NCBI GenBank assembly: GCA_947626395.1
Contig: CANQRU010000032.1
Coordinates: 1 to 41,720, forward strand
Length of the DNA stretch: 41,720 nt
From: an uncultured Lachnospiraceae bacterium
GTDB taxonomy: Bacteria; Bacillota; Clostridia; Lachnospirales; Lachnospiraceae
Reading direction: 5' to 3'
Shown: one piece after another, positions 3,777-26,122 of the stretch
How positions within the stretch are numbered: position 1 is the first letter of the stretch
How the letters are laid out: every line of letters starts with the position of its first letter
Translations under genes and position numbers: made by a program
Notes under the pieces: model-generated
What the model was told of the DNA's origin: nothing
Database searches by the model: none
Seen by the model: only the letters and a program-made list of their open reading frames with translations

Positions 3777-3804
3777 AATTTTCCATTCCTTTCGTAATTA
3801 TTTG

Positions 3805-3833: not shown

Positions 3834-3838
3834 ATGTC

Positions 3839-3869
3839 CTGCTAGAATTATTTAGCATCTAATAGGATT
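3839..3869 (+). promoter_or_regulatory. Tandem operator pair 1 (xre/macro intergenic)
   Basis: CTGCTAGAATT (3839-3849) and CTAATAGGATT (3859-3869), starts 20 bp apart. The orientation is the same as the other three pairs, but no good -10 follows on the plus strand; it lies upstream of the minus-strand xre promoter. Confidence 0.55.
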
Positions 3870-3931
3870 GTAAATGAAAATCATGCCAGAATAGGATCTG
3901 CCGGGCGACGCTGAAAGTCCCAGCAATAATT

Positions 3932-3976
3932 CCGTAAGAATAATATATTGCCCAATAGAATTATTATTGATATAAT
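3932..3976 (+). promoter_or_regulatory. Macro-domain gene promoter with tandem operator pair 2
   Basis: Promoter TTGCCC (3948-3953), 17-bp spacer, TATAAT (3971-3976). Repeats CCGTAAGAATA (3932-3942) and CCAATAGAATT (3952-3962) start 20 bp apart; the second begins at base 5 of the -35 hexamer. Confidence 0.7.
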
Positions 3977-4022
3977 GGAAACAGTGTCGGGAATGAAGCA
4001 GATGTAAGTCGGAGGAGGCTGT

Positions 4023-4511
4023 ATGGAGAACAATATAAGTTTTGTGACAGGTGATATTGTGAAGGCGGATGTGGATATCGTAGTCAATGCGGCAAATGGA
4101 GTCGGATATCTGGGTGGAATCCTCGCACGGAAATGGAAGATGAGCGGAGTCGCGCAGAGCATCAATTATGCAACAAAAGGCGCGGTGGAAAAGGAGGTCC
4201 GGCGCCGGATGAAGATCAGCAAAGCGGGGGAAGTATTCTTTACCTGTGGCTATGGGGTTGGCCGGATCGGGATCATCCACGCCGTTACCATGTTGTTTCC
4301 CGGGGGACGGACCAGTGCGAAAACGGTAGAAACTCTGCTGCCGCGGATCATGGAACTGGCGGAGGAAAAGGGAGCTGAATCGGTGGCGCTACCGTATCTG
4401 GGGAGCGGAACCGGAGGACTGAAGAAAGAAAAGGTACGGGAGATATATAAGAATTATTTTGGCACTTATGGGAAATGCATAGAGATAAAAATATATGAAT
4501 CGAAGAAATAA
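4023..4511 (+). CDS. Macro-domain protein (predicted ADP-ribose binding or hydrolysis)
   Basis: A 162-residue single macro domain of the type that binds ADP-ribose or removes it from modified molecules in the cytoplasm. Family marks are FVTGDIVKADVDIVVNAANG at residues 7-26, a GGILARKW loop in place of the usual GGGVAGAI, a GYGVGRIGIIHAV strand, the FPGGRTSA loop and LPYLGSGTGG phosphate-binding loop. The start follows GGAGGAGG. It has a consensus promoter carrying the same 20-bp repeat pair as the Tad operon 0.6 kb downstream. No DarT-like or other ADP-ribosyltransferase toxin is adjacent, so a DarTG pair is not supported. The substrate and its link to the pilus are unknown. Confidence 0.87.
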   Translation: MENNISFVTGDIVKADVDIVVNAANGVGYLGGILARKWKMSGVAQSINYATKGAVEKEVRRRMKISKAGEVFFTCGYGVGRIGIIHAVTMLFPGGRTSAKTVETLLPRIMELAEEKGAESVALPYLGSGTGGLKKEKVREIYKNYFGTYGKCIEIKIYESKK

Positions 4512-4513
4512 TC

Positions 4514-4558
4514 CTAATAGAATTATTTATTGACTAATAGAATTTATAGCTGTATAAT
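4514..4558 (+). promoter_or_regulatory. Tad operon promoter with tandem operator pair 3
   Basis: Promoter TTGACT (4530-4535), 17-bp spacer, TATAAT (4553-4558). Two identical copies of CTAATAGAATT at 4514-4524 and 4534-4544, 20 bp apart; the second starts at base 5 of the -35. This is the best-matching pair and likely defines the consensus. Confidence 0.78.
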
Positions 4559-4651
4559 CGAATCCAGATAGCAGATTCTCTAAAAACATATCAAGGTACG
4601 CGTTACCTGAATGCAGTTGTGCCGGAAGAAAAAACGAGGAGGTACTACTAT

Positions 4652-5722
4652 ATGCAGATTAAACTGATTATTGCAGAACGGGATGACAGATACCGTGATA
4701 TGATCACGCGTTTTCTAGAGAAGAACCACTTGGATACCCTGGAGATTTTTTCTTTTTCAGGACCGGAGCTGTTGAGAAATTTTCTGGCAGGGGAAAACGC
4801 CGATGTGATCCTGCTTGACAGAAGTTTTGGAATTGAAGCTTCCGAATTGGCAGCTTACGGAAAAGTGGCCTGTCTGTGCGATTCTGAATCGGAAGAGACG
4901 AAAACCCCTGTTCGCACCATTGCAAAGTATAAGAAACCCGATCTGATCTATAATGATATTTTGGATCTTTATGCGGAGAGCGGCAGTCGTGTCTCCAGCC
5001 GTCCAGGAAACAAAGGTTCCTGCAATCTGATATTGATTACAAGCTTTTCGGGTGGTAATGGCGCGTCTACATATGCGGCGGCCTGCGCGAAGAAATCGGC
5101 GGCTCATAATAAAAGGACGCTGTATCTGAATCTGGAACCGACGGGAAGCAGCGCAGATTTCTTTTCGGGAACAGGGAGCTACAGTTTTGAAGATTTGATT
5201 TTCGCCTTAAAGAGTCAGAGGGTGGACGTGGGTCTTAAGATGAAGAGCACGGTTCGGGAGGACAAGAGCGGGGTTTTCTATTTTGAACCCTGCAGTTCAG
5301 CTATGTATATGCTGGAACTGGGACAGGAGGACATTCTAAGGATCTTAAATATATTAAGTACTGGCGGCGATTACGAGAATGTCGTTGTCGATATGGATTT
5401 CCGGCTGGATACAGATTTTATGGAAATCATGAACTGCATGGATAAGATTGTCCTTGTGGAGAACGGCGGGACAACGGCCAACACCAAATTTGCAAGAACT
5501 GCGGATGCGGTAAAAATCCTGGAGGGACAGACGAAATGCAGCGTCATGAATAAGATGTACATTTTCTATAACAATTTCAGCAGCAGTGAATCCAGCAGCG
5601 AGATACAGGGCTTTTCAATTCCGGTTCTGGGGAAACTTCCGCCTGTTAAGCACGCCGTGACCCGGAAGATTGTCGACTATATGGTGGGTCAGGACGTGAT
5701 TTTCGGCAGTCTGCTCGAATAA
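4652..5722 (+). CDS. tadZ: TadZ/CpaE-like pilus assembly ATPase
   Basis: First gene of the Tad operon; TadZ proteins are MinD/ParA-like and place the pilus machine at its cell site. The 356-residue product has an N-terminal receiver-like domain (about 1-115: IIAERDDRYRDMI, then VILLDRSFG) and a C-terminal atypical P-loop domain from about 125. The Walker A position reads SFSGGNGASTYA, so the signature lysine of KGGVGKS is missing, as is known for atypical TadZ proteins. The ATG at 4652 was chosen over an upstream GTG at 4619 because GAGGAGG lies nine bases before it. tadA follows five bases before its ribosome site, so translation is probably coupled. Confidence 0.85.
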   Translation: MQIKLIIAERDDRYRDMITRFLEKNHLDTLEIFSFSGPELLRNFLAGENADVILLDRSFGIEASELAAYGKVACLCDSESEETKTPVRTIAKYKKPDLIYNDILDLYAESGSRVSSRPGNKGSCNLILITSFSGGNGASTYAAACAKKSAAHNKRTLYLNLEPTGSSADFFSGTGSYSFEDLIFALKSQRVDVGLKMKSTVREDKSGVFYFEPCSSAMYMLELGQEDILRILNILSTGGDYENVVVDMDFRLDTDFMEIMNCMDKIVLVENGGTTANTKFARTADAVKILEGQTKCSVMNKMYIFYNNFSSSESSSEIQGFSIPVLGKLPPVKHAVTRKIVDYMVGQDVIFGSLLE

Positions 5723-5733
5723 CGGAGGTGCGT

Positions 5734-6975
5734 ATGCGCGAACAGGATTTTCAGAGCATGGTTGACCAGATACACCATTATGTGACCGAGAACCTTCCGC
5801 TGAGTACAATGTCCGATGAGGAACTGGATGCCGAGATACAGCGGATCGTGAATGAACGCTGCTCAAAGGCCGGTTTTGTTTCCATGGAAGAGCGGGTGCT
5901 CATATGCGAACAGGTTTTCAGCGCGATCCGTGGATTCGGAATCCTTGACCTGATCATGCGCGACGACAAGATCACGGAAGTTATGATCAATGGCCCCAAG
6001 GATATATTTATTGAGAAAAACGGCAGGCTGGAACGACTGGATCAGGAATTTGAGAGTGAGAGACGGTTAGAGGACGTGATTCAGAAGATTGTCGGTCTGG
6101 CCGGAAGAGAGGTGAATCAGGCCAATCCGATCGTAGATACCCGTCTGCCGGATGGGTCCCGTGTAAATGTGGTTCTTCCGCCTGTTTCCATGAAAGGTGC
6201 GACGGTCACCATACGAAAGTTTTCAAAGACGCCCATGACGGTAGAACAGCTTCTGAAGTACGGGTCGATCACTCCGGAGGTGGCCGGGGTACTGGAAGTT
6301 TTGGTTAAGGCCAAATACAATATTTTTATATGCGGCGGAACAGGTTCCGGTAAGACTACGTTCCTGAATGCGGTTTCTAATTTCATACCGCACGACGAGC
6401 GCGTCATTACAATTGAGGATTCCGCGGAGCTGCAGATTGTGGGAATCGATAATCTGGTGAGTCTGGAAACCAGGAATGCGAACGCGTCAGGAAGCGGACA
6501 GATCACGATCCGGGATCTGATCAAATCCTCGCTCCGTATGAGACCGGAGCGGATTGTGGTGGGCGAGGTTCGCGGGGGAGAAGCCCTTGATATGCTCCAG
6601 GCCATGAATACCGGCCATGACGGTTCCCTCAGCACTGGTCATGCCAATTCGACAAAGGATATGCTGAGCCGTTTGGAGACCATGGTTTTGCAGGGAGCGG
6701 CCGGACTGCCTCTGGAAGCGATACGGCAGCAGATCGCATCCGCAGTTGATATTATCATTCATCTTTCCCGGCTGCGTGACAAAACGAGGAAAACGATGGA
6801 AATTACAGAAGTCTGCGGTTATGAAAATGGGGAAATTATTCTTAATCCGCTTTATGTCTTTGAAGAGGACGAGAACAGTACGCTGACGAAGGTTTCCGGG
6901 CAGCTGAAGAGGACGAAGAACAGGCTGCAGAATGATATGAAGCTGAAAATGATGGGATATTATGACGAAATCTGA
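5734..6975 (+). CDS. tadA: TadA/CpaF-type secretion ATPase
   Basis: Hexameric motor ATPase of the Tad (type IVc) pilus, acting on the cytoplasmic face of TadB/TadC. The 413-residue protein has the CpaF N-terminal all-helical domain followed by the ATPase core: Walker A GGTGSGKTT with Lys207, Asp box ITIEDSAELQ, Walker B RIVVGEVRGGEALDML, and His box around MNTGHDGSLSTGHANS. The length fits CpaF family members (about 400-480). ATG 5734 is used because a GTG six bases earlier overlaps the GGAGG ribosome site. Order and spacing with tadZ, tadB and tadC are those of a canonical Tad core. Confidence 0.95.
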   Translation: MREQDFQSMVDQIHHYVTENLPLSTMSDEELDAEIQRIVNERCSKAGFVSMEERVLICEQVFSAIRGFGILDLIMRDDKITEVMINGPKDIFIEKNGRLERLDQEFESERRLEDVIQKIVGLAGREVNQANPIVDTRLPDGSRVNVVLPPVSMKGATVTIRKFSKTPMTVEQLLKYGSITPEVAGVLEVLVKAKYNIFICGGTGSGKTTFLNAVSNFIPHDERVITIEDSAELQIVGIDNLVSLETRNANASGSGQITIRDLIKSSLRMRPERIVVGEVRGGEALDMLQAMNTGHDGSLSTGHANSTKDMLSRLETMVLQGAAGLPLEAIRQQIASAVDIIIHLSRLRDKTRKTMEITEVCGYENGEIILNPLYVFEEDENSTLTKVSGQLKRTKNRLQNDMKLKMMGYYDEI

Positions 6976-6991
6976 AGAATAGAGGTAGGCC

Positions 6992-7831
6992 ATGTTCGGT
7001 AAACAGAAAGCCCCCAGACAGGAAAAACAGAAGGAACAGAAAAAGCGGAAGAAACAGAAAGAAGTTTATACCCCTATAGCCGGCATCATGAACATCGGGG
7101 ATGACTATCATATTTATCATATGACGGTTCCCGACCGTCTAGCGGCAGCGGGACTCGGCGTGACAGCGGGCGTAGCCATTGGGTATGTATTCTTTAACAA
7201 CTGGTGGGTTGCAGGAATCATATCTGTTATTTGTGCTTTGGCGCTTCAAAAACCGTATCAGGAGCACCAGAAGAAGGCGAGGCTTAAGAAACTTCTGCTG
7301 CAGTTTAAAGATCTTCTGGAAACGCTTTCCGCGTCTTATTCTGCAGGACTGACTACAACGAAGGCATTTGCTGACGCTCTTAATGAGATGACGGAACTGT
7401 ATGGAGACAATGCGGATATTGTAACGGAATTGAAAATGATTAACGCAGGGCTCCAGCATAATTTCAATATCGAGGATCTGCTTTTGAATTTTGCCCAGAG
7501 AAGCGGTCTTGACGACGTGGACAGTTTTGCGAATGTGTTCGAGGTCTGTAACCGGAAGGGCGGCAATCTGAAACAGATCGTCAGTGAATCACGGAGCGTG
7601 ATCAATGATAAGATTGAAATCGAGATGGAGATTCAGACCATGGTCGCGGCGAGTAAAAACGAGCTGAATATCATGATGATCATGCCGTTTATTATTATGT
7701 TCTCCCTGCGGAGCATGGGAGATACAATGACCGGAAACAGTCTGCTGAACATTGCAGTAAAGCTGGGAGCGCTGGTTGTTTTTGCGGGCGCCTATGTGAT
7801 CGGGCTTAGGCTTGTGGATATTAAAATATAG
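6992..7831 (+). CDS. tadB: TadB-like platform protein (type II secretion F family)
   Basis: Inner-membrane platform protein expected to bind TadA. The 279-residue product starts with a strongly basic, Gln/Lys-rich cytoplasmic stretch (residues 2-27), then two membrane segments (about 50-85), a helical F-type domain (about 95-215, with LLETLSASYSAGLTTTKAF) and two C-terminal membrane segments (MIMPFIIMFSL and LGALVVFAGAYVIGL). It is 16 bases behind tadA, and its stop codon overlaps the tadC ribosome site. TadB is distinguished from TadC here by gene order only. Confidence 0.86.
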   Translation: MFGKQKAPRQEKQKEQKKRKKQKEVYTPIAGIMNIGDDYHIYHMTVPDRLAAAGLGVTAGVAIGYVFFNNWWVAGIISVICALALQKPYQEHQKKARLKKLLLQFKDLLETLSASYSAGLTTTKAFADALNEMTELYGDNADIVTELKMINAGLQHNFNIEDLLLNFAQRSGLDDVDSFANVFEVCNRKGGNLKQIVSESRSVINDKIEIEMEIQTMVAASKNELNIMMIMPFIIMFSLRSMGDTMTGNSLLNIAVKLGALVVFAGAYVIGLRLVDIKI

Positions 7832-7841
7832 GAGGGCAGAG

Positions 7842-8720
7842 GTGAAGATGGTCAACTGGTTCCAGATTGCGCTGATGGCAGCGGCGACTCCTTTTGTGCT
7901 GTTATGGGTATATCTGTATATGAAATACCAGAATTCCTTCAATCGGTACATAGAAAGCCTGTCGGCGGATGACTATACCCTGCCGGAATTATTTTTCATT
8001 GGCATGGGCTTTATTCATCTGACTCACTATAATCTTCATAGCCGGAAGGGAAGGGCAAGGATCAAGGAAATATCGGAGATCAAGGGCCGTAAATATGCTG
8101 AATACTATTATTATATCATTAAGAGCGCTTCCTTTACCTATATCCTTACGCTGACGCCTGTCGCTGTGATACTGAGCGCTATGTCGAATGAGCCTCTTAT
8201 GCTTGTTCTGGGGATGGCGGTAGTGCTTTTGCTGGTCCGTTATCTGGAAAAGGATATCAATGACAAGCTGGAAGAACGCCGGGAAGAGTTGCTTCTGGAT
8301 TTGCCGCAGGTACTCAGCAAACTGTCGCTTTTGATTAACTCCGGGATGGTTATGCGGGAAGCCTGGGTGAAAGTATCCCAGACCGGAGAGAGGGCTCTTT
8401 ATCAGGAAATGAAGATCACATCCCAGGAGATGGCCAACGGCGCGTCGGATCTGGAAGCGTTTCGGAATTTCGCGGATCGCTGTTCGGTCAAGTCGATCCG
8501 CAAGGTTACGTCCACCCTGGTTCAGAACCTGCAGAAAGGGAACCAGGAGCTGGCGTATTTTTTGGACGATATGTCGCGGGAGATGTGGGAAGAGAAGAAG
8601 AATATTGTCCGCCAGAAAGGCGAGACGGCCGGAACGAAACTTATGATTCCGATCGGTATGATTTTTATGGGAATTATGATCTTGATCATTGTCCCGATTT
8701 TTGGGAATGGGTTTGGCTGA
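7842..8720 (+). CDS. tadC: TadC-like platform protein (type II secretion F family)
   Basis: Second platform protein, which would pair with TadB. Membrane segments lie near the N-terminus (FQIALMAAATPFVLLWVYLY), in the middle (SFTYILTLTPVAVIL and MLVLGMAVVLLLVRYL) and at the C-terminus (LMIPIGMIFMGIMILIIVPIF). The F-type domain holds LPQVLSKLSLLINSGMVMREAW. The GTG at 7842 is six bases after AGGAGG and is used here; the in-frame ATG at 7848 (MVNWFQ) is an equally possible start. About 290 residues fits the family. Confidence 0.85.
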   Translation: MKMVNWFQIALMAAATPFVLLWVYLYMKYQNSFNRYIESLSADDYTLPELFFIGMGFIHLTHYNLHSRKGRARIKEISEIKGRKYAEYYYYIIKSASFTYILTLTPVAVILSAMSNEPLMLVLGMAVVLLLVRYLEKDINDKLEERREELLLDLPQVLSKLSLLINSGMVMREAWVKVSQTGERALYQEMKITSQEMANGASDLEAFRNFADRCSVKSIRKVTSTLVQNLQKGNQELAYFLDDMSREMWEEKKNIVRQKGETAGTKLMIPIGMIFMGIMILIIVPIFGNGFG

Positions 8721-8794
8721 GGAAACATTGTTTGCAGGCGGGATAATATACCTCGCTTTCAAAATAAATCAAATAAATCTAGGAGGATAAGAAC

Positions 8795-9010
8795 ATGTGG
8801 GAGAAACTGGATATGCTGTTTTTGACAGTGATGGCTTTTTGCGATCGTACTGCAGATCGGCTGGCGCATGAAGAAAAAGGAGCTTCCGATATGATCGCGA
8901 TTCTGCTCATCGTAGTGATTCTGATCGCAGTAGCCGCGATTTTCCGTACCCAGCTGATAGGACTTGTAAATCAGGTGTTTGGAAAATTGACCAATTTTGT
9001 GGATCAGTAA
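8795..9010 (+). CDS. Flp-like major pilin candidate
   Basis: A 71-residue prepilin in the position where Tad loci place the pilin. A charged N-terminus ending EEKG (Gly29) precedes a hydrophobic stretch SDMIAILLIVVILIAVAAIF and a short amphipathic tail. Cleavage after Gly29 would leave a 42-residue mature pilin. Unlike classical Flp, the +5 residue after the glycine is Ile rather than Glu, and Asp32 (+3) is the only nearby acid; this resembles the Flp1-like pilins of Clostridia. It has a strong ribosome site (AGGAGGATAAG) and is followed by a large stem-loop, both consistent with a high yield of this product. Confidence 0.8.
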   Translation: MWEKLDMLFLTVMAFCDRTADRLAHEEKGASDMIAILLIVVILIAVAAIFRTQLIGLVNQVFGKLTNFVDQ

Positions 9011-9015
9011 GCGAA

Positions 9016-9057
9016 AGCTCCCCAATGCCGGGCGGTATCTGCCGGCTTTGGGGAGCT
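9016..9057 (+). terminator. Strong stem-loop after the pilin gene (transcript processing or attenuation)
   Basis: Perfect 10-bp outer stem AGCTCCCCAA (9016-9025) with TTGGGGAGCT (9048-9057) and inner stem GCCGG/CCGGC (9027-9031 with 9042-9046). No T tract follows and the operon continues, so it more likely stabilises the pilin mRNA or partly attenuates transcription than ends it. Confidence 0.7.
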
Positions 9058-9087
9058 CGAAAGAGGAAACAAGGGGATAATAAAACG

Positions 9088-9780
9088 ATGAAAAAACGGG
9101 ATCATAAGCGCAGTTCGGAATCGGGCGTCATTCTGATAGAGGCGACTATATATTTCCCGATCGTGATTTTTCTCGTTATCGCGCTCATTTATATGGGGAT
9201 GGTAAAATATCAGGAAAGCGTGCTGACGTTTCAGGTGCAGAAGCTGGCTGTAATGGGAGGCCGCCAGGTGGCCTATCCGGGCTATGAGGAATTCCTGTCG
9301 GACGGTTCTCTTGCGTCCGGCGCGGTTGATTTTAAGGAGGACAGCAGTTTCGGTTCGTCCATGGAGGCGTACTACGAGGCGCATTCGCATCACCTGTATA
9401 ATGAATGGCGGTTCGATTACGGGAATGAGCAGGCGGAGTTAAAGAGAACGCTGGAGGATATGCTCAGCCAGAGGTCGTTTCTGACCGGAATCAGCACGGA
9501 AGCAAACGTGGAGATCGGAAACTATGTGATCGGAAAAAGTATTTCTGTGACGGCTTCCTATGGAGTGGAAAGCCCGAAGTTTCTGGAGATCATCGGCGTT
9601 CCGCTGAATTTGAAAATGACTACTTATGTGACGCAGTCGGCGGCTAATCCGACCGAGCTGGTAAGGGATATCGATCTGGCGGGAGATTTGATCAATTTCC
9701 TTCTTGAGAGGTTTGGAGTAAAGGGCCGGGTCGATGATTTCCTGAAAAAAGTAGAGGATATAAAGAATAAGATACTGTAG
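9088..9780 (+). CDS. TadE-like pseudopilin
   Basis: A minor pilin-like membrane protein of 230 residues. The short basic leader ends at Gly13, followed by VILIEATIYFPIVIF: Glu18 at +5 after the glycine is the mark of prepilin peptidase substrates and of TadE/TadF. After the helix comes an extracytoplasmic domain rich in Ser/Glu/Tyr. The ATG at 9088 is chosen because AAGGGGAT sits nine bases upstream; upstream in-frame codons run through the pilin stem-loop. It precedes the large DUF5702-type gene, with 17 bases between. Confidence 0.85.
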   Translation: MKKRDHKRSSESGVILIEATIYFPIVIFLVIALIYMGMVKYQESVLTFQVQKLAVMGGRQVAYPGYEEFLSDGSLASGAVDFKEDSSFGSSMEAYYEAHSHHLYNEWRFDYGNEQAELKRTLEDMLSQRSFLTGISTEANVEIGNYVIGKSISVTASYGVESPKFLEIIGVPLNLKMTTYVTQSAANPTELVRDIDLAGDLINFLLERFGVKGRVDDFLKKVEDIKNKIL

Positions 9781-9797
9781 ATGGGGATCAGGCTGCT

Positions 9798-12700
9798 ATG
9801 AGAAGGTTCAGAAGAGAGATAAAAGGTTCGATCGCATTGTTTTTGTCTATGATCATGCTGCTTTTGGTATTGCTGGAGGGATTCCTGATCGACGGCAGCA
9901 GGGTTGTTGCGGGCAAGATGATGATGTCTACGGCCGGAGATATGGCGCTGAACGCGGGACTTACTTATTATGATGATTCTCTCAGGAAGATCTACGGCCT
10001 TTTTGCGGTCAGTGAGACGGAAGAGGAATTAAAGAAGAACCTGGAGGTGTATTTTAAGGAAACCATAGGAGAGGCGTCCGGGATTAACGGGGGCGACGGG
10101 GGAGACGGAACGCAATATACGCAGAAGCTTCTGGACAGCATAAAGGCCGCCGTTACCGGGGATATGAACGGACAGGACGCGACGAAGATCATCAATCTGG
10201 CGCTGAAGCCCGGAACCTTTGAAGTCAAAGGCGTGCCGGAGTCGGCGCTGTCTAATTCGTATGCGATCAAGAACCAGATCCTGGAATATATGAAATACCG
10301 CGGTCCGGCAAGCCTCGGATACGGGATGCTGGAGAAGCTTTTTGCTTTTAAGGATTTAGGCAAGCAGCAGAACGCAATGGAGAAAAAGCTTGACTATGAA
10401 GAGAATCTTTCGGATATCCAGAAAGCGTGCGAGGAAGCGTATGACAATCTTGTTGTTTATAACAGACTGCTGGATGAAGAGCTGAATCCGTCTGCGGTGG
10501 AAGAGGCCAGCCTTATTATTAACCGGAACATGTATGAGGCGATCATCGCGGTCTGGTGTTACAGCGTTTTGAAAAACACGCCGGTATTGGAAGAATGGGA
10601 AACGAAGCCGGACGACGACCTTACTTTTGCCGATATGAATGAGGCGGGGGATACGATGGAGGAAGTAACCGGACCGGACGGTTCTTCCGTGGGAACGATG
10701 GAGTCGGTTTACAGGGATTATACCACGAGCAGGGGAGAAGGTTTTGCCGGACATCCGAGGGCGGCGATGGACGTCGTGAAGCTGGTTCTCGGCTACGAGG
10801 AAGAGTGCGGGATGTACCGGGTGTTTTATAATACCTGGGAGACATATAAGGATGAATACGACAGTCTGCCGGAAGAGGAACAGGATCCGGAAGAATACAG
10901 CGAGTATGAAGCGATCTATGATCTGTACGCAGGCAGGATTGAAAAATATATCAGTGCACCGGATGAAATGCTTGAGCTGCTGAAGAGTGATATAGATAAT
11001 CGCATGAAAACAGCGGCCGACAAACTGAATCAGATCGCTGGGCAGGCGGAGAATCTGAAAGAGGCGGCCCGCCTGGGGAAAGAGGCCCTGAACGACATAT
11101 TGACGTCTATGGATACCCTGGAAGGCAAAAAGGCGGCCTGGCAGGGAGCTATCGATGATCTGTCGTCCGGCGGAACGCAGACTTCAATGCAGACCTCGAT
11201 GCAGGCCGATCTGGACAATAAGGCGAAAGAGCTGAATCGGCAGCAGGTGATAGATCTGCAGGATAAAGTCGGCAATGGAATGGCCTATGCGGAAATGCTG
11301 CTTGGCGCTGCCGCTGATACAAAGGCGGCGGGTTTTAAATTAGAAGACCAGGATAAGAGCAGTTATGCCGCCTACATGTGGAACAGTTTTCTTCATACAT
11401 CCTATAAAAATGATACGAATCCTTTTTCCATCGGCGATCGTTTCTCAACCTTCGACGTGGATACCTGGACTGAAAACGCCGTACAGACAGGGAGTTTATC
11501 GGATTCGGCCTGTACCGTCTATTTTGTTAATCTGAACGGCGGCGTGTATGAAGGGAATTTCCGTAAGATGGATCTGAAAAACTATTCAGATCAGATGGAT
11601 ACGGCCATCAGCGGAAAAAACGATCCGTTCTACGCGTATCTGGAACGGACGTGCCCCAAGAGAGACGCAGAAGATACAAGCAAGAAGGATGCGGAAGATA
11701 AAAAGAAAAGCCTTCTGGAACAGGGGGGCAGCCCGGATCTGACTGCAGACGGACTGCCGACGCTTCCTTCGTCAGGTTCTGCCAGCGAACATACAGATAT
11801 TAAAACGACGGGAGGGAATGCGGAAAAAGAGGAGATCTCCAAAAACGCAAAAGAGAATACAAAGAAGACGTCGAATTTTCTGGATCAGATAGGCAGCCTT
11901 CTGGAAAAGGGCCGGGATAAGCTGTACATTTCCGAATACGCTACAAAGATGTTCAGCTATTATACGATCGATAAGACCAAAGAGGGGGAGGATCGGACGG
12001 AAGATGAGGTTACTCTGAGCAACTATCCGATGAATGCGGCCAATAACGCCATGTATAAGGCGGAGGTGGAATACATTCTGTGGGGCGATGCGTCCGGTTC
12101 GAACGATGTGAGTTATACCCTTGCTACGATTTTTGGTATTCGGCTGCTTCTGAATATGCTGTATGCGTTTACAGGGGATCCGGAGATACGGTCTGTGTCG
12201 CTGGGAATTGCCACAGCCATCGCGGGATGGACGGGGTTCGGAGTGCCGCTCGTGCAGAGTGTGATTATCATCGCGTTCGCCCTGGCGGAGTCCGCATATG
12301 ATATTGCGGAGTTAAGGAATGGTAAGAGCATACCGATTTATAAGTCGACGAATACATGGGTGGTAAAACCCTCTAATATGCTTGGAGAGATAACAAGCGA
12401 TATGATCACGCAGGTGGTTAAAGACGCCGCGAAGAATGCGAAAGAGCTGATGTTCGATAAACTGGATGAACTGACGGAGGAAACAAAAGATTCATTCAAA
12501 TCCACATTCCAGAATTATGCGGATAAGACCGTAAAGAATATCGTGAGCACGGCGTCGCAGACAGTGCTCACGCCGGTACAGGAGAGGCTGGTTTCACTGA
12601 TCAATATCCCTTCGGATGTCGGGAACTCTGTGGAGGCGCAGTTTACTGCGGCGATTTCCAGTCTGAGGGACGATATTGCGGCGGAGCAGGACAGTATTAT

Positions 12701-13385: not shown

Positions 13386-13404
13386 AGAGGGGGATGGCCT
13401 GTTC

Positions 13405-14196: not shown

Positions 14197-14221
14197 TTGC
14201 GAAACGAGAGGAATGCAGGGT

Positions 14222-14848: not shown

Positions 14849-14858
14849 AGGAGACGAG

Positions 14859-16151: not shown

Positions 16152-16165
16152 AGAGGGAGAGCGCA

Positions 16166-17683: not shown

Positions 17684-17694
17684 GAAGGAAGCCC

Positions 17695-18483: not shown

Positions 18484-18965
18484 CGTCCAAGATAAAATGG
18501 AAGCAGATCGGACAATGGAGGAGGATCACTCTGATCATATCGGCCGTCCTGCTTATCCTGGCTTTCGCTCCGTGTATTCACATAGAGGAAATCCCGGTAT
18601 TCGATCCATATGGGGTATTTGAAAAAAAGGTTTCTGAGATACCGATGGCAAACTGGGCGATGGTGCCTGTTATCATATTGGTTATTTTTGCCTGTATATC
18701 TGAATCGTGGGCAGCCAGAATTGTGAGATTCACAGCGTCGCTTATTCTGCTTATATATACTACCGTCCTGATTCGTGTCCTGGCCATGAGCCAGGTTATG
18801 GACGGTATTTCTCTGATACAGTACCGGTATACCGGTTTTGGATGGGGCTGCTTTTTGCTTTCCTCTGCTGTTTTCGTTTCAGCAGCGTTTTCTCTCAGGG
18901 AAGATGGAACGCAAAAGGATGCAGGATGGGAGAAGAACAGAAGCAAGAGAAAAGGATTGGCTTGA
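18480..18965 (+). CDS. Small four-helix membrane protein of unknown function
   Basis: A 161-residue protein with four hydrophobic segments (about 17-35, 57-75, 80-100 and 115-135), a short basic N-terminus and a basic C-terminal tail. It starts with ATGA overlap on the phosphatase stop and ends in TGATG overlap with the next gene, so it is translated as part of the chain. I do not recognise a family. Position between the phosphatase and the glycosyltransferase-like genes suggests a role in the same envelope process. Confidence 0.78.
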   Translation: MTSKIKWKQIGQWRRITLIISAVLLILAFAPCIHIEEIPVFDPYGVFEKKVSEIPMANWAMVPVIILVIFACISESWAARIVRFTASLILLIYTTVLIRVLAMSQVMDGISLIQYRYTGFGWGCFLLSSAVFVSAAFSLREDGTQKDAGWEKNRSKRKGLA

Positions 18966-20425
18966 TGGAGCGCATGGAAGGAAAGAGACGGCGTACAGCC
19001 GGATGGGCTGAAGTGATATCCAGACTGTTGATCGCAGTAGTCTGTTTTGGTATTTTTTTTATATACCTCGGTAACTGTGATGAACTGTGGAACTATAATT
19101 TTGGGAGAAATATCGCAGAAGGGATGGTACCTTACCGGGATTTCAACATGGTACAGACACCGTTGTCTGCGTATATCCTTGCAGGGATTTTCCTCCTTTT
19201 TGGGGAACGGCTTTTGATCTATCGAATCGCCGGCTTTATACTGATGCTTGTCAGTTTCCAGCTATTTTACTCTATATGCAAAAGAATCACCAGGGACAGT
19301 CTGTTCGCCTTTGCATATACACTGTTTTTCACTGTGATGAATTTCTTGTGTTGGATATACAATTATAATTATATGACGCTGACGATTCTTTTGGCGGTGC
19401 TGTATCTGGAACTTGTATTTCAGGATACGAGGCCGCTGCTGACAGCGTGTCTGAGTGGTTTTTTAATCGGGTTATGTCCTCTGATCAAACAGAATACAGG
19501 AGCATTCCTGCTGATCGGAAATTTCATTTTATGCGCTGCGGATATCCTGTATTATAAAAAACCATGGAAACAAGCCCTGCTTAGAGCAGGCATGAGCCTG
19601 GTTCCGCTGCTGCTGTTTGTATGTGTCTGGGTGATCCGGGGGAATTGGGAGAGCTTCTTCGAATACGCGGTGCTTGGGATCGGAACTTTTTCGCACCGGA
19701 TAACATTCATTCACTTTATGACGCAGGCGCCGGTGACATTTTGCCTTTCAGCGGTTCCGCTGGGTATAGGGGCGTATATCATCTGCGGCGTCTATAGAAA
19801 CGGATGCAGCAGACTTCAGCTTACATACCTGACGATATCCGTGACGTTTCTTTCGATGGCTTATCCACTGTGTGATTTCAGCCATTTGTTCTGCGCGGTG
19901 GTTCCGTTGTCGCTGACTATGCTTTTGTATATGGGACAGCGAGGTGTGTCGGCCAGGGAAAGGTTTTTGAGTAAAGTGGCGGTGACGGCGGAAATATATG
20001 TGGCGGCGCTTTTTATCTGGGGGCTGTTGTCTCCGCTTTCAGAAAAGGAATTCAGCAGCCTCAGACATTATGAAGGGATACCTGTCATTAGCGTTCAAAA
20101 TGAAGAGATACATGCCGTGGATGATTATATTCTTGCGCGGGAGGCAGAGGGGAAGTACGTTTATATCGCAGACAGTGCATCGGCCGTTTATACAATTCCG
20201 CTGGACAGGTATGATAAATTCTGGGATATGCTTCTTGTGGGCAATATAGGTCTCGCGGGGATAGAAGACATCCTGCCGAAGGGAAACGGTAATATTTTTC
20301 TTGTGCTGGACGACGAATATAAACTCGAGTGGCAGAATTATTTTGAACTGATCCAGTATGTAAAGGATCATTATACATTTGCAGGCAGGATTGGCAGATA
20401 TGACATTTATCAGCAGGAAGAATAA
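18965..20425 (+). CDS. GT-C-type membrane glycosyltransferase (GT39/ArnT-like)
   Basis: A 486-residue polytopic protein with about eleven membrane helices and a C-terminal soluble part (from about 380). The first external loop carries Asp39-Glu40 in GNCDELWNYNFGRN, followed by PYRDFNMVQTPLSAY, which is the layout of GT-C enzymes that use a lipid-phosphate sugar donor. ATG 18965 is used because TGATG couples it to the previous stop and AAAGGA lies nine bases upstream; a longer in-frame start at 18926 is possible. With the next two genes it forms a lipid-linked glycosylation group. The acceptor is not known; the pilin or pseudopilins are the obvious candidates. Confidence 0.75.
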   Translation: MERMEGKRRRTAGWAEVISRLLIAVVCFGIFFIYLGNCDELWNYNFGRNIAEGMVPYRDFNMVQTPLSAYILAGIFLLFGERLLIYRIAGFILMLVSFQLFYSICKRITRDSLFAFAYTLFFTVMNFLCWIYNYNYMTLTILLAVLYLELVFQDTRPLLTACLSGFLIGLCPLIKQNTGAFLLIGNFILCAADILYYKKPWKQALLRAGMSLVPLLLFVCVWVIRGNWESFFEYAVLGIGTFSHRITFIHFMTQAPVTFCLSAVPLGIGAYIICGVYRNGCSRLQLTYLTISVTFLSMAYPLCDFSHLFCAVVPLSLTMLLYMGQRGVSARERFLSKVAVTAEIYVAALFIWGLLSPLSEKEFSSLRHYEGIPVISVQNEEIHAVDDYILAREAEGKYVYIADSASAVYTIPLDRYDKFWDMLLVGNIGLAGIEDILPKGNGNIFLVLDDEYKLEWQNYFELIQYVKDHYTFAGRIGRYDIYQQEE

Positions 20426-21917
20426 GAAGTTTTCAGCAGTTGATTACGGATATGCTGCTATAGGATTCCTGGTGTTTTCGGTACTTTTGTACTTTCTGGG
20501 ACAGGGAATTCCGGGAAATGATTTCTGGTGGCATGTGAAGGCGGGAGAGTGGATCTGTACACATGGTTCAGTACCTGTGCAGGATATCTTTTCGTGGTAC
20601 GGTATAGAAAAAGGAATCCGTTGGACTGCCCATGAATGGTTATCCGAAGTGGTGTTTTATATGATTTACAGCCGCTTTGGAGAGAGAGGGATATATCTGT
20701 TCGTGGTGGCGGCCGCGCTTATATTCACCTGGCTGATGTGGGAACAGGCAAAGAAGTATATTGTCAGGAACATCATGTTCGGCAGTGCGTTCTTTGGTCT
20801 CTATGCGGTGCTTGCCCCATTGTTTTTTTATGGAAGGCCGCACATATTCAGTTTTTTCTTACTGTACTTTGAACTGAGATTATTATACGGATATCTGGAC
20901 GGACACGGCAGACGCAGGGTTTTTATCATTCCCTTTTTGGCAGTTTTGTGGAGCAATTTCCATGGCGGTTCTGCAAGTCTTTCCTACATCCTGTGCCTTG
21001 TTTTTGCGGCGGGAAGTCTGTTTTCTGTCAGGATTGGCCGGATTGCATCTGTAAGGGAGGATTGGAAAGTACCGCTGCGGCTGCTTCTGGTTGCTGCGTT
21101 GTCTGCCGCAGCAATTCTGGTGAACCCTGTGGGAAAAGCAGTATTTCTTTATCCGTATGATAACCTGGCCCAGAGGCAGATGCTTTCGGTTATCAGCGAA
21201 TGGCAGTCTCCGGATGCAAAGGAACTGGGCCAGATGATTCTCTTTTATCTGCCAATTGCGCTGATGTGCCTGGGGATGTGTGCGGATAAGGGGAATTTGC
21301 GTCTTACGGATCTGCTGATAATGGGGATGTTCCTATTGTTGTTTTTCCGAAGTGTGCGCTTCATCTTTCTGTGGTATATTGCGGCTGTCTTCTGTGCCTT
21401 TCCATATGTGCCGCGGTACGAGGTCAGACAGATTAAAAAGCCATGGGAGAGAGTCGTATTGCAGTTGTCCGTTCTGACGGCCATATTGCTGTTTGGTGCC
21501 GGAGCGGTCGGAATTATCAGGACATACAGGAAAGGTGAAATGATAGAGGAAGTGCTTTCTGAGCAAATGCTGGAAACTGTCCGAACCCAAGCACCCGAGA
21601 GGATTTTTAATGATTACGATACAGGGGAAGCTTTAATATTCCATGATCTGCCGGTATTTTTTGACTCCAGGGCCGATTTGTACGCTCAGGAGCATATTTT
21701 CGAGGATGGCATCAGTTTGACAGGGCTGGTTCAAATGAATCCGGAAGAGGATGCTGCTTACGCTGATGTGGAGATGCTGATGGACAGGTATGGTTTTGAC
21801 GGGCTTCTGCTGAGACGCGGACGGCCGCTCGTACCCTATTTACGCAGTCATCCCGAGAGATATGAACTGGTGTTTGAGGACAAAGATACAGTATATTTTT
21901 CAGTTCTGGAACAGTGA
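20400..21917 (+). CDS. Second GT-C-like polytopic membrane protein
   Basis: A 505-residue protein with about ten to eleven membrane helices and a C-terminal extracytoplasmic domain (about 395-505). The first loop has NDFWWHVKAGEWI (Asp41) and WTAHEWLSEVVFY, a pattern seen in uncharacterised GT-C-like families. It overlaps the previous gene by 26 bases. Because it stands between another GT-C protein and a dolichyl-phosphate mannosyl synthase-like gene, it is probably a second transferase or a flippase-like partner. Function is inferred only from topology and context. Confidence 0.68.
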   Translation: MTFISRKNKKFSAVDYGYAAIGFLVFSVLLYFLGQGIPGNDFWWHVKAGEWICTHGSVPVQDIFSWYGIEKGIRWTAHEWLSEVVFYMIYSRFGERGIYLFVVAAALIFTWLMWEQAKKYIVRNIMFGSAFFGLYAVLAPLFFYGRPHIFSFFLLYFELRLLYGYLDGHGRRRVFIIPFLAVLWSNFHGGSASLSYILCLVFAAGSLFSVRIGRIASVREDWKVPLRLLLVAALSAAAILVNPVGKAVFLYPYDNLAQRQMLSVISEWQSPDAKELGQMILFYLPIALMCLGMCADKGNLRLTDLLIMGMFLLLFFRSVRFIFLWYIAAVFCAFPYVPRYEVRQIKKPWERVVLQLSVLTAILLFGAGAVGIIRTYRKGEMIEEVLSEQMLETVRTQAPERIFNDYDTGEALIFHDLPVFFDSRADLYAQEHIFEDGISLTGLVQMNPEEDAAYADVEMLMDRYGFDGLLLRRGRPLVPYLRSHPERYELVFEDKDTVYFSVLEQ

Positions 21918-21930
21918 AGGAGAAGGCGCT

Positions 21931-22881
21931 GTGAATACAAATTTATGGATCGTTGTTCCCTGCTATAACGAGGAAATGATCCTTGAGAAAACGGCGGTAT
22001 GCCTAAAAGAGAAGATGGAAAAACTGAACAGGTTGGATATTCTGTCCGGTAACGGGCGGATTGTCTTTGTAGATGACGGCAGCAGCGACGGAACCTGGCA
22101 GAAGATACGGGAGTTAGCAGGCAGCGATAAGATGTTTTTGGGAATCAGGCTGTCCCATAACAGGGGCCAGCAGAACGCCCTGCTGGCAGGAATGATATAC
22201 GCAAAGGATCGCTGCGACTGCGTTGCCACAATCGATGCAGACATGCAGGATGATATAGATGTGCTGCCGGCTTTTTTGGAAAAATATGCAGAAGGCTGCC
22301 AGATCGTCTATGGAGTCAGGAAAAACCGTAATGAGGACACGGTATTAAAGCGTGCGACAGCGCAGTTGTTTTATCGGATCATGAAACTGATGGGCGCTGA
22401 AGTTTTCTATAACCACGCTGATTACAGGTTAATGAGCAGGAAGGCGCTGGAGGCACTTGCGGAATATTCGGAGGTGAATTTATTTCTCAGGGGAATGATC
22501 CCTCAAATCGGGATGAAAAGCGCAGTGGTCTATTATGACCGGAAAGCGCGGACAGCCGGAAAAACGAAATATTCGGTACGGAAGATGATAAGCCTCGCCA
22601 TAAACGGACTTACCTCATTCAGTGAAAGGCCGCTCCATTTGATATCTGTGACAGGCATTATATGTTCTCTGCTCAGCCTTCTTGGAATGGCATATGCGCT
22701 TATTTCTTACTTTTTCGGGTATACAGTACCGGGGTGGACGGCTATCGTGTGTTCCATCTGGCTCCTTGGGGGAATCCAGCTGATGTGTCTGGGAATAGTA
22801 GGGGAATATATCGGCAGGATATTCTCTGAGGTAAAAAGGCGTCCGCGTTATTATATAGAAGAAACGACAGAGATGGGATGA
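21931..22881 (+). CDS. Family 2 glycosyltransferase (DPM1/GtrB-like polyprenyl-phosphate sugar synthase)
   Basis: A 316-residue enzyme that would load a nucleotide sugar on polyprenyl phosphate at the inner membrane face. The GT2 core has WIVVPCYNEEMI, IVFVDDGSSDGTW and ATIDADMQDD (acidic metal and donor site), then two C-terminal membrane helices (about 240-300), typical of GtrB/ArnC-type members. The GTG at 21931 is chosen because AAGGAGA lies seven bases before it and the family begins at about this point. The lipid-linked sugar it makes is the probable donor for the two upstream GT-C proteins. Confidence 0.88.
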   Translation: MNTNLWIVVPCYNEEMILEKTAVCLKEKMEKLNRLDILSGNGRIVFVDDGSSDGTWQKIRELAGSDKMFLGIRLSHNRGQQNALLAGMIYAKDRCDCVATIDADMQDDIDVLPAFLEKYAEGCQIVYGVRKNRNEDTVLKRATAQLFYRIMKLMGAEVFYNHADYRLMSRKALEALAEYSEVNLFLRGMIPQIGMKSAVVYYDRKARTAGKTKYSVRKMISLAINGLTSFSERPLHLISVTGIICSLLSLLGMAYALISYFFGYTVPGWTAIVCSIWLLGGIQLMCLGIVGEYIGRIFSEVKRRPRYYIEETTEMG

Positions 22882-22929
22882 TACTCTGTTTGGGTACGGC
22901 AGTAAGAGTAAATTCAGAGGAGGAATGTT

Positions 22930-23085: not shown

Positions 23086-23118
23086 TAGGTCAGGGCCTGA
23101 GAAGGGAGGAAATATGCG

Positions 23119-25974
23119 ATGGGGCAGATTATTGCTTCGACGTATGAGATTATAGAGAAGATAGGAGCCGGTGGAGGCGGCAATGTATATCTCGCGAATC
23201 ATCTTCGATTAGGCAAACGGGTGGTGCTTAAGGCGGATAAAAGGGAAATGACCACGCGTCCTGAACTTCTCCGAAGAGAGGTAGATGTACTTAAGAATCT
23301 GAATCACCCGAATATTCCTGTAGTCTATGATTTTTTTGCTGAGAACGGTATCGTTTATACAGTCATGGATTTCATTGAAGGTGAAAGCCTGGACAAGCCG
23401 CTTAAGCGGGGAGAGAAGTATCCGCAGGCGCAGGTGATTCAATGGGCGATACAGCTTTTGGAGGCGCTGAAATATCTGCATAGCCCTGTTCATGGTACGC
23501 CGCCGAAGGGATATGTACACAGCGACATAAAACCGGCCAACCTTATGCGCAGGCCGAACAACGATATCTGCCTGATCGACTTTAATATCGCGCTCGCGCT
23601 TGGTGAAAAGAATGTGGTCGGCTGCAGCATTGGCTACGCGTCTCCGGAACATTACGGTTTGGATTATTCGTTTGGAGCCGAACAGACACTTCACGGGAAT
23701 ACGGTTCCGATGCCTGGCCCGGACCGGAAAACGGTTCTTATGCCCCGGAATATGGGAAGTACATCCGGAAAACGGACGGTCATACCTGACGTGCGGTCTG
23801 ATATCTACAGCACGGGGGCGACGCTTTATCATCTGCTTAGCGGCAGACGGCCGGAATGGGACGCCAAAACGGTCGTTCCTCTTTCGGATAAGGAATTCAG
23901 CCCGCAGGTTGTAAAAATTATTACGAAAGCCATGAATCCGAATCCGGATCTGCGTTATCAGACGGCAGAGGAAATGCTGAATGATTTCCTGCATCTTCGC
24001 GACCGGGATCCCAGGGTATTGAAGATGAGGAGACAGGCGATCGTGGGAGGAGCGGTGTTCCTGCTGCTGCTGTCGGCGGAACTCGCCTCATCGTTCGTCG
24101 GCCTGAAGCGCATGCAGACTACCGAGAACTGGCTGAAGCTGGCCGAGTACTCCCGCAACGCCCTGGAAACCGGCGATTCTGCGCTGGCGATCGATTACGC
24201 TCTGCAGGCGCTGCCGGAACGGACGGGAAGCATTCTGGAGCCGCCTTATACGGCCCAGGCCCAGAGCGCCCTGACGGACGCCCTGGCGGTCTATGATCTT
24301 TACGACGGCTATAAGACCCAGGGAGCGGTGAATCTGCCGGCGCCGCCTCTCGCGATGGAGATCTCTCCGGATGGCAGGACGGCGGTGTGCATTTACGCTT
24401 ATGAGGCGGCGCTGATCGATACGGAGACGGCGCAGATCCTGAAGACGCTGCCGGTGGCGGAATCCGCGCTCAGCGAGGTTCACTATCTGGATAAGGATAC
24501 GGTCCTGCTGGCGGGAGCGGACGGGATCACAGCTTATGACATCCCGGGCGATCGGATCATATGGACGGGAAATATGGCTACGGCCATCGCGGTATCCGGA
24601 GACGGGAAACGGGCGGCGGCCGTATATCGTGATGAGCAGTCGGCGGCGCTGTATGACACGAAGGATGGCAGACTGCTCAAAACGGTCGATTTCGGCGGGA
24701 GGAGTCAGAGCGTGACAGTGAATGACATTTTCGCCAATCCGCGGGACAATCTTCTGGCGCTGAATGAGGACGGCACTCTTCTGGGGGCCAGCTTTGCGGA
24801 TGGATCCCTGCAGATTTTTGATCTTGAGAATCCGGATGATGACATTATCCTTTTCGATCCGGACTCCGGCTACAGTCATTTTGAAGGAGGCTTCTATCAG
24901 GAGTATTTCGCGTTCGCCGCGACAACGCCGGGGGATTCCATGTTCGGCGTTATCGATACGGAGAACATGGTGCAGACCGGCGGTTTCGAGTCGGACCAGG
25001 CGTTTGGGGTGGAAACGGATGGGAGCGGCATTTATGTGCAGACGCAAAATCTGCTGGTAAAGATCGATCCGGTGACGGGCGGGCAGGAGCCGCTGGTGAC
25101 GACGCCAGATAACATTCTTCGATTTGCCAGAGGAGGCGGGCATACGCTGATCGCGTCGGAGGACAAGTTTATGTTCTATGACAGTTACGCGAATCTGATG
25201 TCCACTCACACGAAGGAGTACGGCGGTGATTTCGTCCGGCTGGCGGAAGGCGTCGCGCTGGTCGGAAGTATGGATTCCCCGCTGGTGCGGGTGATGAAAT
25301 ACATCGACTATCCGGAAGCGGAGGTATTTTCCTATGATTCGTCGTATGTGCACGACGAGGCGCGGCTGAGCGCGGATGGGAAGACGGTGATGCTGTTCGC
25401 CTATGATCAGTTCAGGCTCTGCCGGCTGGACGGCGGGCTGATCGCGGAGGTGGATATCCCGGACGCGGAGCAGGTCTACGACCAGCAGTACCGGCGGGAT
25501 GCGGACGGTTCGCGGCTGGAAGTGATCTATAATGACGGCACGGTGAGAAATTACAGCGCCGCGGACGGCTCCCTGATCAGCGAGGAGAGCGGAGAAGCGC
25601 CGGCGGAGGATCTGTATGAGGAATTCTGCACGGATAACCTGCGGATCACCTCGCCGCTTCACGGGACTCCGGCGGCCTATGACAGGGAGAGCGGACGGCT
25701 GGTGCGGGAACTGGAGAAAGACGCGTATCTGACGTATGTGACGCAGACCGGGGATTACATCGTGACGCAGTATACGACGGCGGACGGCTATTTTTACGGA
25801 CAATTGCTGAACGGGCAGTGCGAGGTGCTGGCGGAGCTTCCGTATCTCTGCGATGTGTATGACGGAACGCTGTATTTTGACTATCCGACCGGTCATGTGC
25901 GGGAATCCCGCATTTATGATATCGGCGAGCTGATCGGGATGGCTCGTGCAAAGAAAGATGAGAGGAAACAGTGA
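23119..25974 (+). CDS. Membrane Ser/Thr protein kinase with large C-terminal propeller-like domain
   Basis: A 951-residue Hanks-type kinase. The cytoplasmic kinase domain (about 9-290) has a Gly loop GAGGGGNVY, Lys38 in VVLK, and a catalytic loop HSDIKPANLM (Asp136, Asn141) with Ser in place of the Arg of HRD. The metal loop reads DFN (154-156) rather than DFG. A roughly 50-residue insert after YASPEHYG carries three TV motifs. One membrane helix (about 305-330) leads to an extracytoplasmic region of about 600 residues with WD40- or PQQ-like repeats (MEISPDGRTAVCIY, IAVSGDGKRAAAVY). The layout is that of a sensor kinase reading an outside signal. It is the last gene of the Tad operon; substrates may include the FHA protein. 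Catalysis is likely retained but is unproven. Confidence 0.88.
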   Translation: MGQIIASTYEIIEKIGAGGGGNVYLANHLRLGKRVVLKADKREMTTRPELLRREVDVLKNLNHPNIPVVYDFFAENGIVYTVMDFIEGESLDKPLKRGEKYPQAQVIQWAIQLLEALKYLHSPVHGTPPKGYVHSDIKPANLMRRPNNDICLIDFNIALALGEKNVVGCSIGYASPEHYGLDYSFGAEQTLHGNTVPMPGPDRKTVLMPRNMGSTSGKRTVIPDVRSDIYSTGATLYHLLSGRRPEWDAKTVVPLSDKEFSPQVVKIITKAMNPNPDLRYQTAEEMLNDFLHLRDRDPRVLKMRRQAIVGGAVFLLLLSAELASSFVGLKRMQTTENWLKLAEYSRNALETGDSALAIDYALQALPERTGSILEPPYTAQAQSALTDALAVYDLYDGYKTQGAVNLPAPPLAMEISPDGRTAVCIYAYEAALIDTETAQILKTLPVAESALSEVHYLDKDTVLLAGADGITAYDIPGDRIIWTGNMATAIAVSGDGKRAAAVYRDEQSAALYDTKDGRLLKTVDFGGRSQSVTVNDIFANPRDNLLALNEDGTLLGASFADGSLQIFDLENPDDDIILFDPDSGYSHFEGGFYQEYFAFAATTPGDSMFGVIDTENMVQTGGFESDQAFGVETDGSGIYVQTQNLLVKIDPVTGGQEPLVTTPDNILRFARGGGHTLIASEDKFMFYDSYANLMSTHTKEYGGDFVRLAEGVALVGSMDSPLVRVMKYIDYPEAEVFSYDSSYVHDEARLSADGKTVMLFAYDQFRLCRLDGGLIAEVDIPDAEQVYDQQYRRDADGSRLEVIYNDGTVRNYSAADGSLISEESGEAPAEDLYEEFCTDNLRITSPLHGTPAAYDRESGRLVRELEKDAYLTYVTQTGDYIVTQYTTADGYFYGQLLNGQCEVLAELPYLCDVYDGTLYFDYPTGHVRESRIYDIGELIGMARAKKDERKQ

Positions 25975-26000
25975 GAATGAGAAACATGAGGAAAGAGGCG

Positions 26001-26019
26001 GATATGCGGATATCTTTTT
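26001..26019 (+). terminator. Weak terminator at the end of the Tad operon
   Basis: Short hairpin GATAT (26001-26005) with ATATC (26010-26014), followed by five T (26015-26019). Only five base pairs, so read-through into the next gene is possible. Confidence 0.3.
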
Positions 26020-26026
26020 AATAATT

Positions 26027-26071
26027 CTGATAGAATTAATACTTGCCTATAAGAATTTACAGAGGTATAAT
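26027..26071 (+). promoter_or_regulatory. Promoter of the secreted repeat protein with tandem operator pair 4
   Basis: Promoter TTGCCT (26043-26048), 17-bp spacer, TATAAT (26066-26071). Repeats CTGATAGAATT (26027-26037) and CTATAAGAATT (26047-26057) start 20 bp apart with the same placement on the -35 as at the macro and Tad promoters. Confidence 0.75.
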
Positions 26072-26122
26072 AATCCCTGGGTGAGTTATTGAACCCAATT
26101 AACATATCAGGAGGAAAGAAAA

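Follow-up and report, generated by a model that had tools for sequence, protein, structure and literature searches.

The window analyzed here, a 41,720-nucleotide stretch of an uncultured Lachnospiraceae genome (GenBank assembly GCA_947626395.1, contig CANQRU010000032.1, positions 1 to 41,720), carries a gene for a small Cro/C1-type regulator, xre, which lies divergent to a macro-domain protein gene and a Tad operon; the gene of a wall-binding surface protein is found farther downstream. The initial annotation described four pairs of an 11-bp element at these genes, and our reading of the sequence (3600-4900 and 25800-26300) bore this out: the pairs start at 3839/3859, 3932/3952, 4514/4534 and 26027/26047, with a spacing of 20 bp in 4/4. 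We consider it likely that the neighbouring XRE protein uses these pairs as tandem operators, through which it would control the Tad, macro and surface-protein promoters by joint repression and also regulate itself. The regulator gene and the control regions comprise the following features:

3441..3776, reverse strand: xre, a 111-amino-acid (aa) Cro/C1-type (HTH_3) regulator and the proposed binder (Pfam HTH_3, 2.9e-12)
3805..3833, reverse strand: predicted weak xre promoter, -10 TACAAT at 3805-3810 and poor -35 TATTTG at 3828-3833 (consensus reading)
3839..3869, no strand assigned: xre operators, one pair (CTGCTAGAATT and CTAATAGGATT), centred at about -44 and -64 relative to the predicted start of xre
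3928..3942, forward strand: macro promoter, distal operator, degenerate (AATTCCGTAAGAATA); the orthologous site in genome G406 is perfect
3948..3962, forward strand: macro promoter, proximal operator, over the -35 TTGCCC (3948-3953)
3971..3976, forward strand: macro promoter, -10 TATAAT
4510..4524, forward strand: Tad promoter, distal operator (AATCCTAATAGAATT)
4530..4544, forward strand: Tad promoter, proximal operator, over the -35 TTGACT (4530-4535)
4553..4558, forward strand: Tad promoter, -10 TATAAT
26023..26037, forward strand: surface-protein promoter, distal operator (AATTCTGATAGAATT)
26043..26057, forward strand: surface-protein promoter, proximal operator, over the -35 TTGCCT (26043-26048)
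26066..26071, forward strand: surface-protein promoter, -10 TATAAT

When compared to CTAATAGAATT, the copies at 4514 and 4534 match at 11/11 positions, those at 3859, 3952 and 26027 at 10/11 and those at 3839 and 26047 at 9/11, the weakest being the copy at 3932 (CCGTAAGAATA; 6/11). The macro, Tad and surface-protein promoters share one layout: the fifth base of the -35 hexamer (TTGCCC at 3948, TTGACT at 4530 and TTGCCT at 26043) is where the second copy starts, and TATAAT follows 19 bp downstream of that start (3971, 4553 and 26066), so that the fixed register to -35 and -10 described earlier is identical in 3/3.

To see how specific the pairs are, we scanned the available genome sequence (3,457,157 bases). 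With 19 specified bases and up to three mismatches, five places were found, as compared to none with the reversed pattern, and the three best (0, 2 and 2 mismatches) all lie inside the window. Leaving out the -35 (18 specified bases, up to three mismatches), eight places were found versus two in the reversed control: the top three were 4514 (0 mismatches), 3839 (1) and 26027 (1), and the remaining five, one of which overlaps the Tad site itself, had 3 mismatches each, which is about background. Pairs of window quality are limited to this locus within the available 3.46-Mb genome sequence, and the proposed regulon withstood this genome-wide search for equal pairs. The reversed-pattern controls, zero or nearly so, also agree with the original view that A/T richness alone explains the pairs poorly; they rule out chance A/T-rich repeats.

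Across the 26 genomes of the genus, a pattern that combined the pair with its -35 and -10, 23 specified bases in all, was found with no more than three mismatches at 30 places in 10 genomes, and its reversed control in 0/26. A looser pattern hit every one of the 26 genomes; its controls were of a similar order, and it was mostly background and served for leads only. A family-wide scan of 397 genomes, allowing two mismatches over 19 specified bases, gave 49 places in 36 genomes, the reversed pattern giving about 30; five of the 49 are within the genus (in the window's own genome, G000, and in G114), and those outside it are mostly background. Four pair matches lying away from an xre-Tad locus (L101 in G406, and L102, L103 and L104) have next to them nothing that matches any of 23 window proteins (0/4, E < 1e-8). 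The matches at L102, L103 and L104 have 1-2 mismatches, and in G077 an identical matched sequence is present twice, L102 covering one of these copies.

Six of the 30 genus places were set aside and 24 kept. Five of the six are copies of a look-alike, AGAATATTCCC...TATAAT, which is promoter-like and conserved in five genomes (G000, G114, G406, G408 and G409) before a 128-aa gene that appears Asp23-like by eye (own-genome place G000:C50:6842-6881, L092; the others are L086, L087, L093 and L095). It differs from the pair pattern at 2-3 positions, is devoid of the CTAATAG core and is probably unrelated to the operator. The sixth, G114:C53 (2 mismatches), is a probable chance match.

An alignment of 21 distinct relatives' sites, from which these six and the window's own three were excluded, clarified the anatomy of the element. 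The distal copy is a 15-bp dyad with the palindromic consensus AATTCTANTAGAATT, to which 9/21 relatives' sites conform exactly over 15 bp; the bases of its left arm, AATTC, are kept in 19, 18, 18, 19 and 21 of the 21 sites, respectively. In the proximal copy the left arm is mostly reduced to CTA, the remainder being the TTGNC of the -35, such that this copy is only half-symmetric. The distal and proximal dyad centres fall at -48 and -28. Measured against AATTCTANTAGAATT, the window's distal copies have four deviating positions at the macro promoter and one each at the Tad and surface-protein promoters. The weak copy at 3932 is supported by its left arm AATTC, of which the initial annotation made no use, and by the perfect orthologous site in G406. 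The direct repeat first reported is thus real in its shared part and incomplete, since it consists of parts of two tandem dyads with a distal unit of 15 bp. Judged by this symmetry, the distal sites appear to be dyads of the Cro/C1 kind and candidates for the site bound by XRE.

The genes behind the operators, together with the kinase gene between them, are:

4023..4511, forward strand: macro-domain protein gene (Pfam Macro, 1.6e-14)
4652..22881, forward strand: Tad operon and co-directional genes (Pfam; extent inferred from gene order)
23119..25974, forward strand: Ser/Thr protein kinase gene (Pfam Pkinase, 1.6e-32)
26123..30748, forward strand: gene of a 1541-aa protein with choline-binding-type wall repeats (Pfam Choline_bind_3, 1.7e-18)

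The 24 kept places stand before the same kinds of genes: nine before TadZ (G000, G114, G406, G407, G408, G409, G410, G413 and G417), four before macro genes (G000, G406, G407 and G413), seven before surface proteins like that at 26123 (G000, G114, G406, G408, G409, G410 and G417) and four before Ser/Thr-kinase genes or operons (G416, G413 and two sites in G406). A listing of the best site per locus shows a neighbouring Tad or macro site instead for L082, L085, L077 and L081. In G413 and at one of the two G406 sites, at least one other reading frame separates the operator from the kinase, and in G416 the pair lies at a kinase gene adjoining xre. In L100 (G406, 3867-11201) and L088 (G413), kinase genes behind the same operator pair are found on contigs other than that of the Tad locus; the location of these operons on separate contigs points to control in trans. 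At xre itself the pair is kept in 9/9 xre-Tad loci, with 8-11 of 11 bases per copy. The regulon most likely consists of xre, the macro gene, the Tad operon and the surface-protein gene, with Ser/Thr-kinase operons added in three relatives. The proposal that one regulator serves the first four is thereby supported by conservation before the same genes (Tad in 9 genomes, macro in 4, surface protein in 7), and the pair was indeed found before orthologous Tad and macro genes, a finding that leaves the regulon unrefuted.

We then asked whether the operators go with xre. XRE relatives of at least 74% identity are encoded in 11/26 genus genomes, and G404 has one of 57-58%. Leaving the look-alike class aside, strict sites were found in 10/11 genomes with such an XRE versus 0/15 others (Fisher 2e-6, a value that ignores kinship and is overstated). 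G404 (record L168) fell outside the xre-operator test, as its contig starts 26 bp upstream. A CpaF-like match is present in 25/26 genus genomes, with 42 CpaF matches in total; 30 loci were examined, 16 of the window's Tad type (CpaF E below 1e-140, one per genome, the next match being 1e-126) and 14 of other type, and 12 matches were without a locus. In the window type the pair was found in 9/9 loci with an adjoining xre (0-2 mismatches, before TadZ), xre lying just upstream on the same contig, and in 0/7 loci lacking an adjoining XRE (G399, G400, G416, G404, G415, G403 and G397), where the best 31-mers had 5-7 mismatches and an XRE of this kind was on another contig or absent. As the genomes are related and not independent, the Fisher value for this contrast, 9e-5, is overstated. 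Nor was the pair found in any of the 14 other-type loci (best 5-8 mismatches). A second CpaF-type locus in the window's own genome (G000:C51:4913-6031, L257) is 55% identical, and the stretch examined there holds no operator pair.

Two genomes are of particular help here. In G399 (L230), CpaF is 88% identical to that of the window, the closest of all, yet the operator is absent and no such XRE was found in the genome (88% complete); in contrast, G408 (L149) has an XRE of 97% identity with a CpaF of 61%. The control region thus stays constant while the Tad cassette differs, and cassettes appear to have been exchanged under a conserved xre-operator region.

The XRE protein scored 46.8 bits against the Pfam HTH_3 cut-off of 23, and its AlphaFold model has seven helices (mean predicted local distance difference test score, pLDDT, 87.1; predicted template modelling score, pTM, 0.62). 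Its closest PDB relatives by sequence are C.AhdI, SinR, the ICEBs1 Xre protein and C.BclI, and the closest folds are ClgR, C.BclI, C.AhdI, P22 C2, ImmR and SinR, within about 1.2 Z of each other. The fold matches are numerous and differ little in Z (12.5 to 10.3 across the best 50, with the C-terminal helices barely covered), so they name the fold and not the family.

If XRE reads the site, the site should vary with the protein. We collected 123 XRE loci (some genomes twice), of which 113 had at least 200 bp upstream, and reduced them to 60 representatives at 80% identity. Two CTNNNAG motifs 20-23 bp apart occur within 300 bp upstream in 14/60, as compared to a mean of 0.47 in dinucleotide shuffles (standard deviation 0.67, maximum 3 in 300) and 2/59 in the 300 bp downstream; offsets of 11-19 were empty. 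By identity to the window XRE, the pairs are found in 3/4 (at least 70%), 3/9 (50-70%), 0/8 (43-50%), 6/28 (35-43%) and 2/11 (below 35%). Thirteen representatives have a promoter-embedded site in the window register, and among them ERGT proteins go with AGAA in 6/7 and proteins with IT....YGN.ERGD (the IT..(Y/F)YGN.ERGD type) go with AGCATT in 5/5. Operator sequence co-varies with XRE sequence, as expected if XRE reads the site, in a small sample that follows subfamily. Members of the ERGD subfamily, whose operators are mostly AGCATT, lie divergent to a 126-aa protein in L129 and L198, and to 312-/321-aa proteins that look HTH-regulator-like by eye in L185 and L199.

We favour XRE as the binder because the sites track the adjacent xre, the distal copies are dyads and variant pairs lie upstream of XRE relatives. 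In the mechanism that we infer, which extends to binding, one dimer per dyad, cooperativity, the sign of regulation and any inducing signal, an XRE dimer on the distal dyad (AATTCTANTAGAATT, centre -48) would help a second dimer onto the imperfect proximal site (centre -28). The left arm of the latter is the -35 box, and an occupied site would block RNA polymerase, such that the macro, Tad and surface-protein promoters would be repressed together. In the near-consensus target promoters, both the -35 and the spacer lie under the site, and in L161, L163, L165 and L166 the pair overlaps a -10 instead (read by eye); repression is the simplest sign, since such -35/-10 sequences need no activator and since the pair lies over the -10 in these four loci.

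XRE would regulate its own promoter through the pair at about -44/-64, possibly positively. In 8/10 loci, the window included, the operator closest to this promoter is centred at -43 or -44 (L110 and L111 vary with the choice between overlapping -10s), and the xre -10 (TACAAT/TAAAAT) is without a good -35; both the window's -10 and its spacing to the operator recur in relatives. A pair at about -43/-44 before a poor -35 makes self-activation possible. Lambda CI activates its own promoter from an operator near -43.

Several observations weigh against XRE as the repressor that binds these pairs. An exact palindrome is found in 0/3 of the window's distal copies. G415 encodes an XRE of 75% identity and is without the pair, the segment in which its close relative G416 carries the operator being missing; in G416, XRE is present together with one pair at the kinase gene, yet the Tad locus, on another contig, has none. 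The line that defines the window's Tad type was placed at the E-value gap after the list was known. As many as 46/60 XRE relatives have no CTNNNAG pair at 20-23, including 8/8 in the 43-50% class, and the code has exceptions in L169 (ERGT facing AGTA) and L140 (an ERGD of another subfamily facing AGAA, with a doubtful -10). Outside the genus, the pair matches of L102 (G077), L103 (G029) and L104 (G179) have no XRE relative in their stretch. Finally, site geometry by itself is compatible with activation.

The most probable alternative keeps XRE as binder but makes it a dual switch akin to controller proteins or lambda CI, where the distal dimer would activate, the proximal one would repress and the weak xre promoter would be activated. 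The proximal site inside the -35 recalls the distal/proximal architecture of C.Esp1396I (PMC3758141), the structurally characterized proteins nearest to XRE include C.AhdI and C.BclI, and the poor xre -35 with its nearest operator centre at -43/-44 in 8/10 loci fits as well. As near-consensus target promoters require no activator and the pair over the -10 in L161, L163, L165 and L166 (by eye) is a repression position, we regard such a switch as possible, though unlikely.

Quite improbable is a regulator encoded elsewhere, a LytTR or other response regulator with xre among its targets, which the initial annotation had entertained. LytTR activators do use direct repeats, spaced by some 20 bp and located near the -35. 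The pair, however, is present in 9/9 loci with an adjoining xre versus 0/7 without, its distal copy is a dyad, and variant pairs go with XRE relatives; the earlier suggestion thus finds no support and this candidate is disfavoured. No LytTR or receiver-HTH regulator was recognized among the 29 window proteins (Pfam, E up to 0.001; a search confined to these proteins), TadZ having only a TadZ-like receiver domain. That the pairs are A/T-rich promoter sequence common by descent, without a shared regulator, is barely credible: the region is A/T-rich and the look-alike, conserved in five genomes in front of a single gene family, shows that promoters can match at 2-3 mismatches by descent, but the reversed-pattern controls are zero or nearly so, and the same motif stands in a fixed register before unrelated genes and is absent in the close Tad relative G399.

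Joint repression by XRE invites comparison with known systems, foremost the controller (C) proteins of restriction-modification (R-M) systems. R-M C proteins act at a pair of operators, of which the proximal one supplies part of the -35 (PMC3758141), their consensus is GACTTATAGTC with about 4 bp between sites (PMC4321490), and in Mollicutes a C protein recognizes direct repeats as well as promoters other than those of R-M genes (PMC5282649). C.AhdI, C.BclI and C.Esp1396I are, like the window XRE, small HTH proteins close in sequence and fold, with tandem operators of which the proximal one lies within the -35; GACTNATAG of GACTTATAGTC is common to some window-type proximal sites. Unlike them, the window system has a right arm of AGAATT and not AGTC, dyad centres 20 bp apart, surface-gene targets and C-terminal helices after the HTH. 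The canonical C-box GACTNNNAGTC, as defined in PMC4321490 and PMC3758141, is not what the sites contain: its left part GACTNATAG occurs in some proximal sites, and the right arm is AGAATT. No R-M enzyme was matched by Pfam among the 29 window proteins. The window system would work like R-M controller systems and is not a member of them.

SinR of Bacillus subtilis, whose operators are GTTCTYT repeats, has an operator arrangement unlike that of the window; it is among the top PDB sequence relatives of XRE, and the SinR model was not among the 8 NCBIfam families reported. Lambda CI and P22 C2 share with the window system the Cro/C1 fold, tandem operators between divergent promoters and a poor self-promoter with an operator near -43. 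Unlike lambda CI, the window XRE is 111 aa and without the CI C-terminal domain; the RstR phage-repressor model scored 43.4, below its cut-off of 80, and no phage genes were recognized by Pfam among the 29 window proteins. AGAATT, AATAG and Tad do not occur (term search) in the part of PMC5171806 that was available, and neither this operator nor a regulator of Tad pili in Clostridia came up among the top-ranked titles from a literature collection that lacks most subscription journals.

As for the remainder of the locus, 4652..22881 encodes TadZ-like, CpaF (T2SSE), two T2SSF, Flp1-like, DUF5702, prepilin peptidase, WG-repeat, FHA, PP2C, PMT_2 and GT2 proteins, the TadZ start (ATG 4652) having been picked by its ribosome-binding site. 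On the other side, an IMP cyclohydrolase-like gene and an AICARFT/IMPCHase-domain gene (1448-3364) adjoin xre, as they do in G406 and G409.

Taken together, the operator set is real and conserved, and judging from sequence it is best read as that of the adjacent XRE. A bolder picture, which we likewise regard as possible though unlikely, is that of a phage-repressor-style bistable switch co-opted for the surface programme of gut Lachnospiraceae, in which self-activation at -43 and cooperative shut-off of Tad pili, adhesin, macro protein and kinases would yield piliated and bald cells, with a broad XRE subfamily having an operator code of its own (ERGT-AGAATT, ERGD-AGCATT) and Tad cassettes swapped beneath the conserved switch. 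If true, this would be the more striking outcome; the regulon and operator code are for the specialist useful rather than shocking. Tad-type loci are near-universal in the genus (CpaF-like matches in 25/26 genomes), and a candidate regulator, an exact operator and a regulon can now be named for them. The findings further suggest a family of operators for which part of the recognition code can be read, which may be of use in reading regulons in uncultured genomes.

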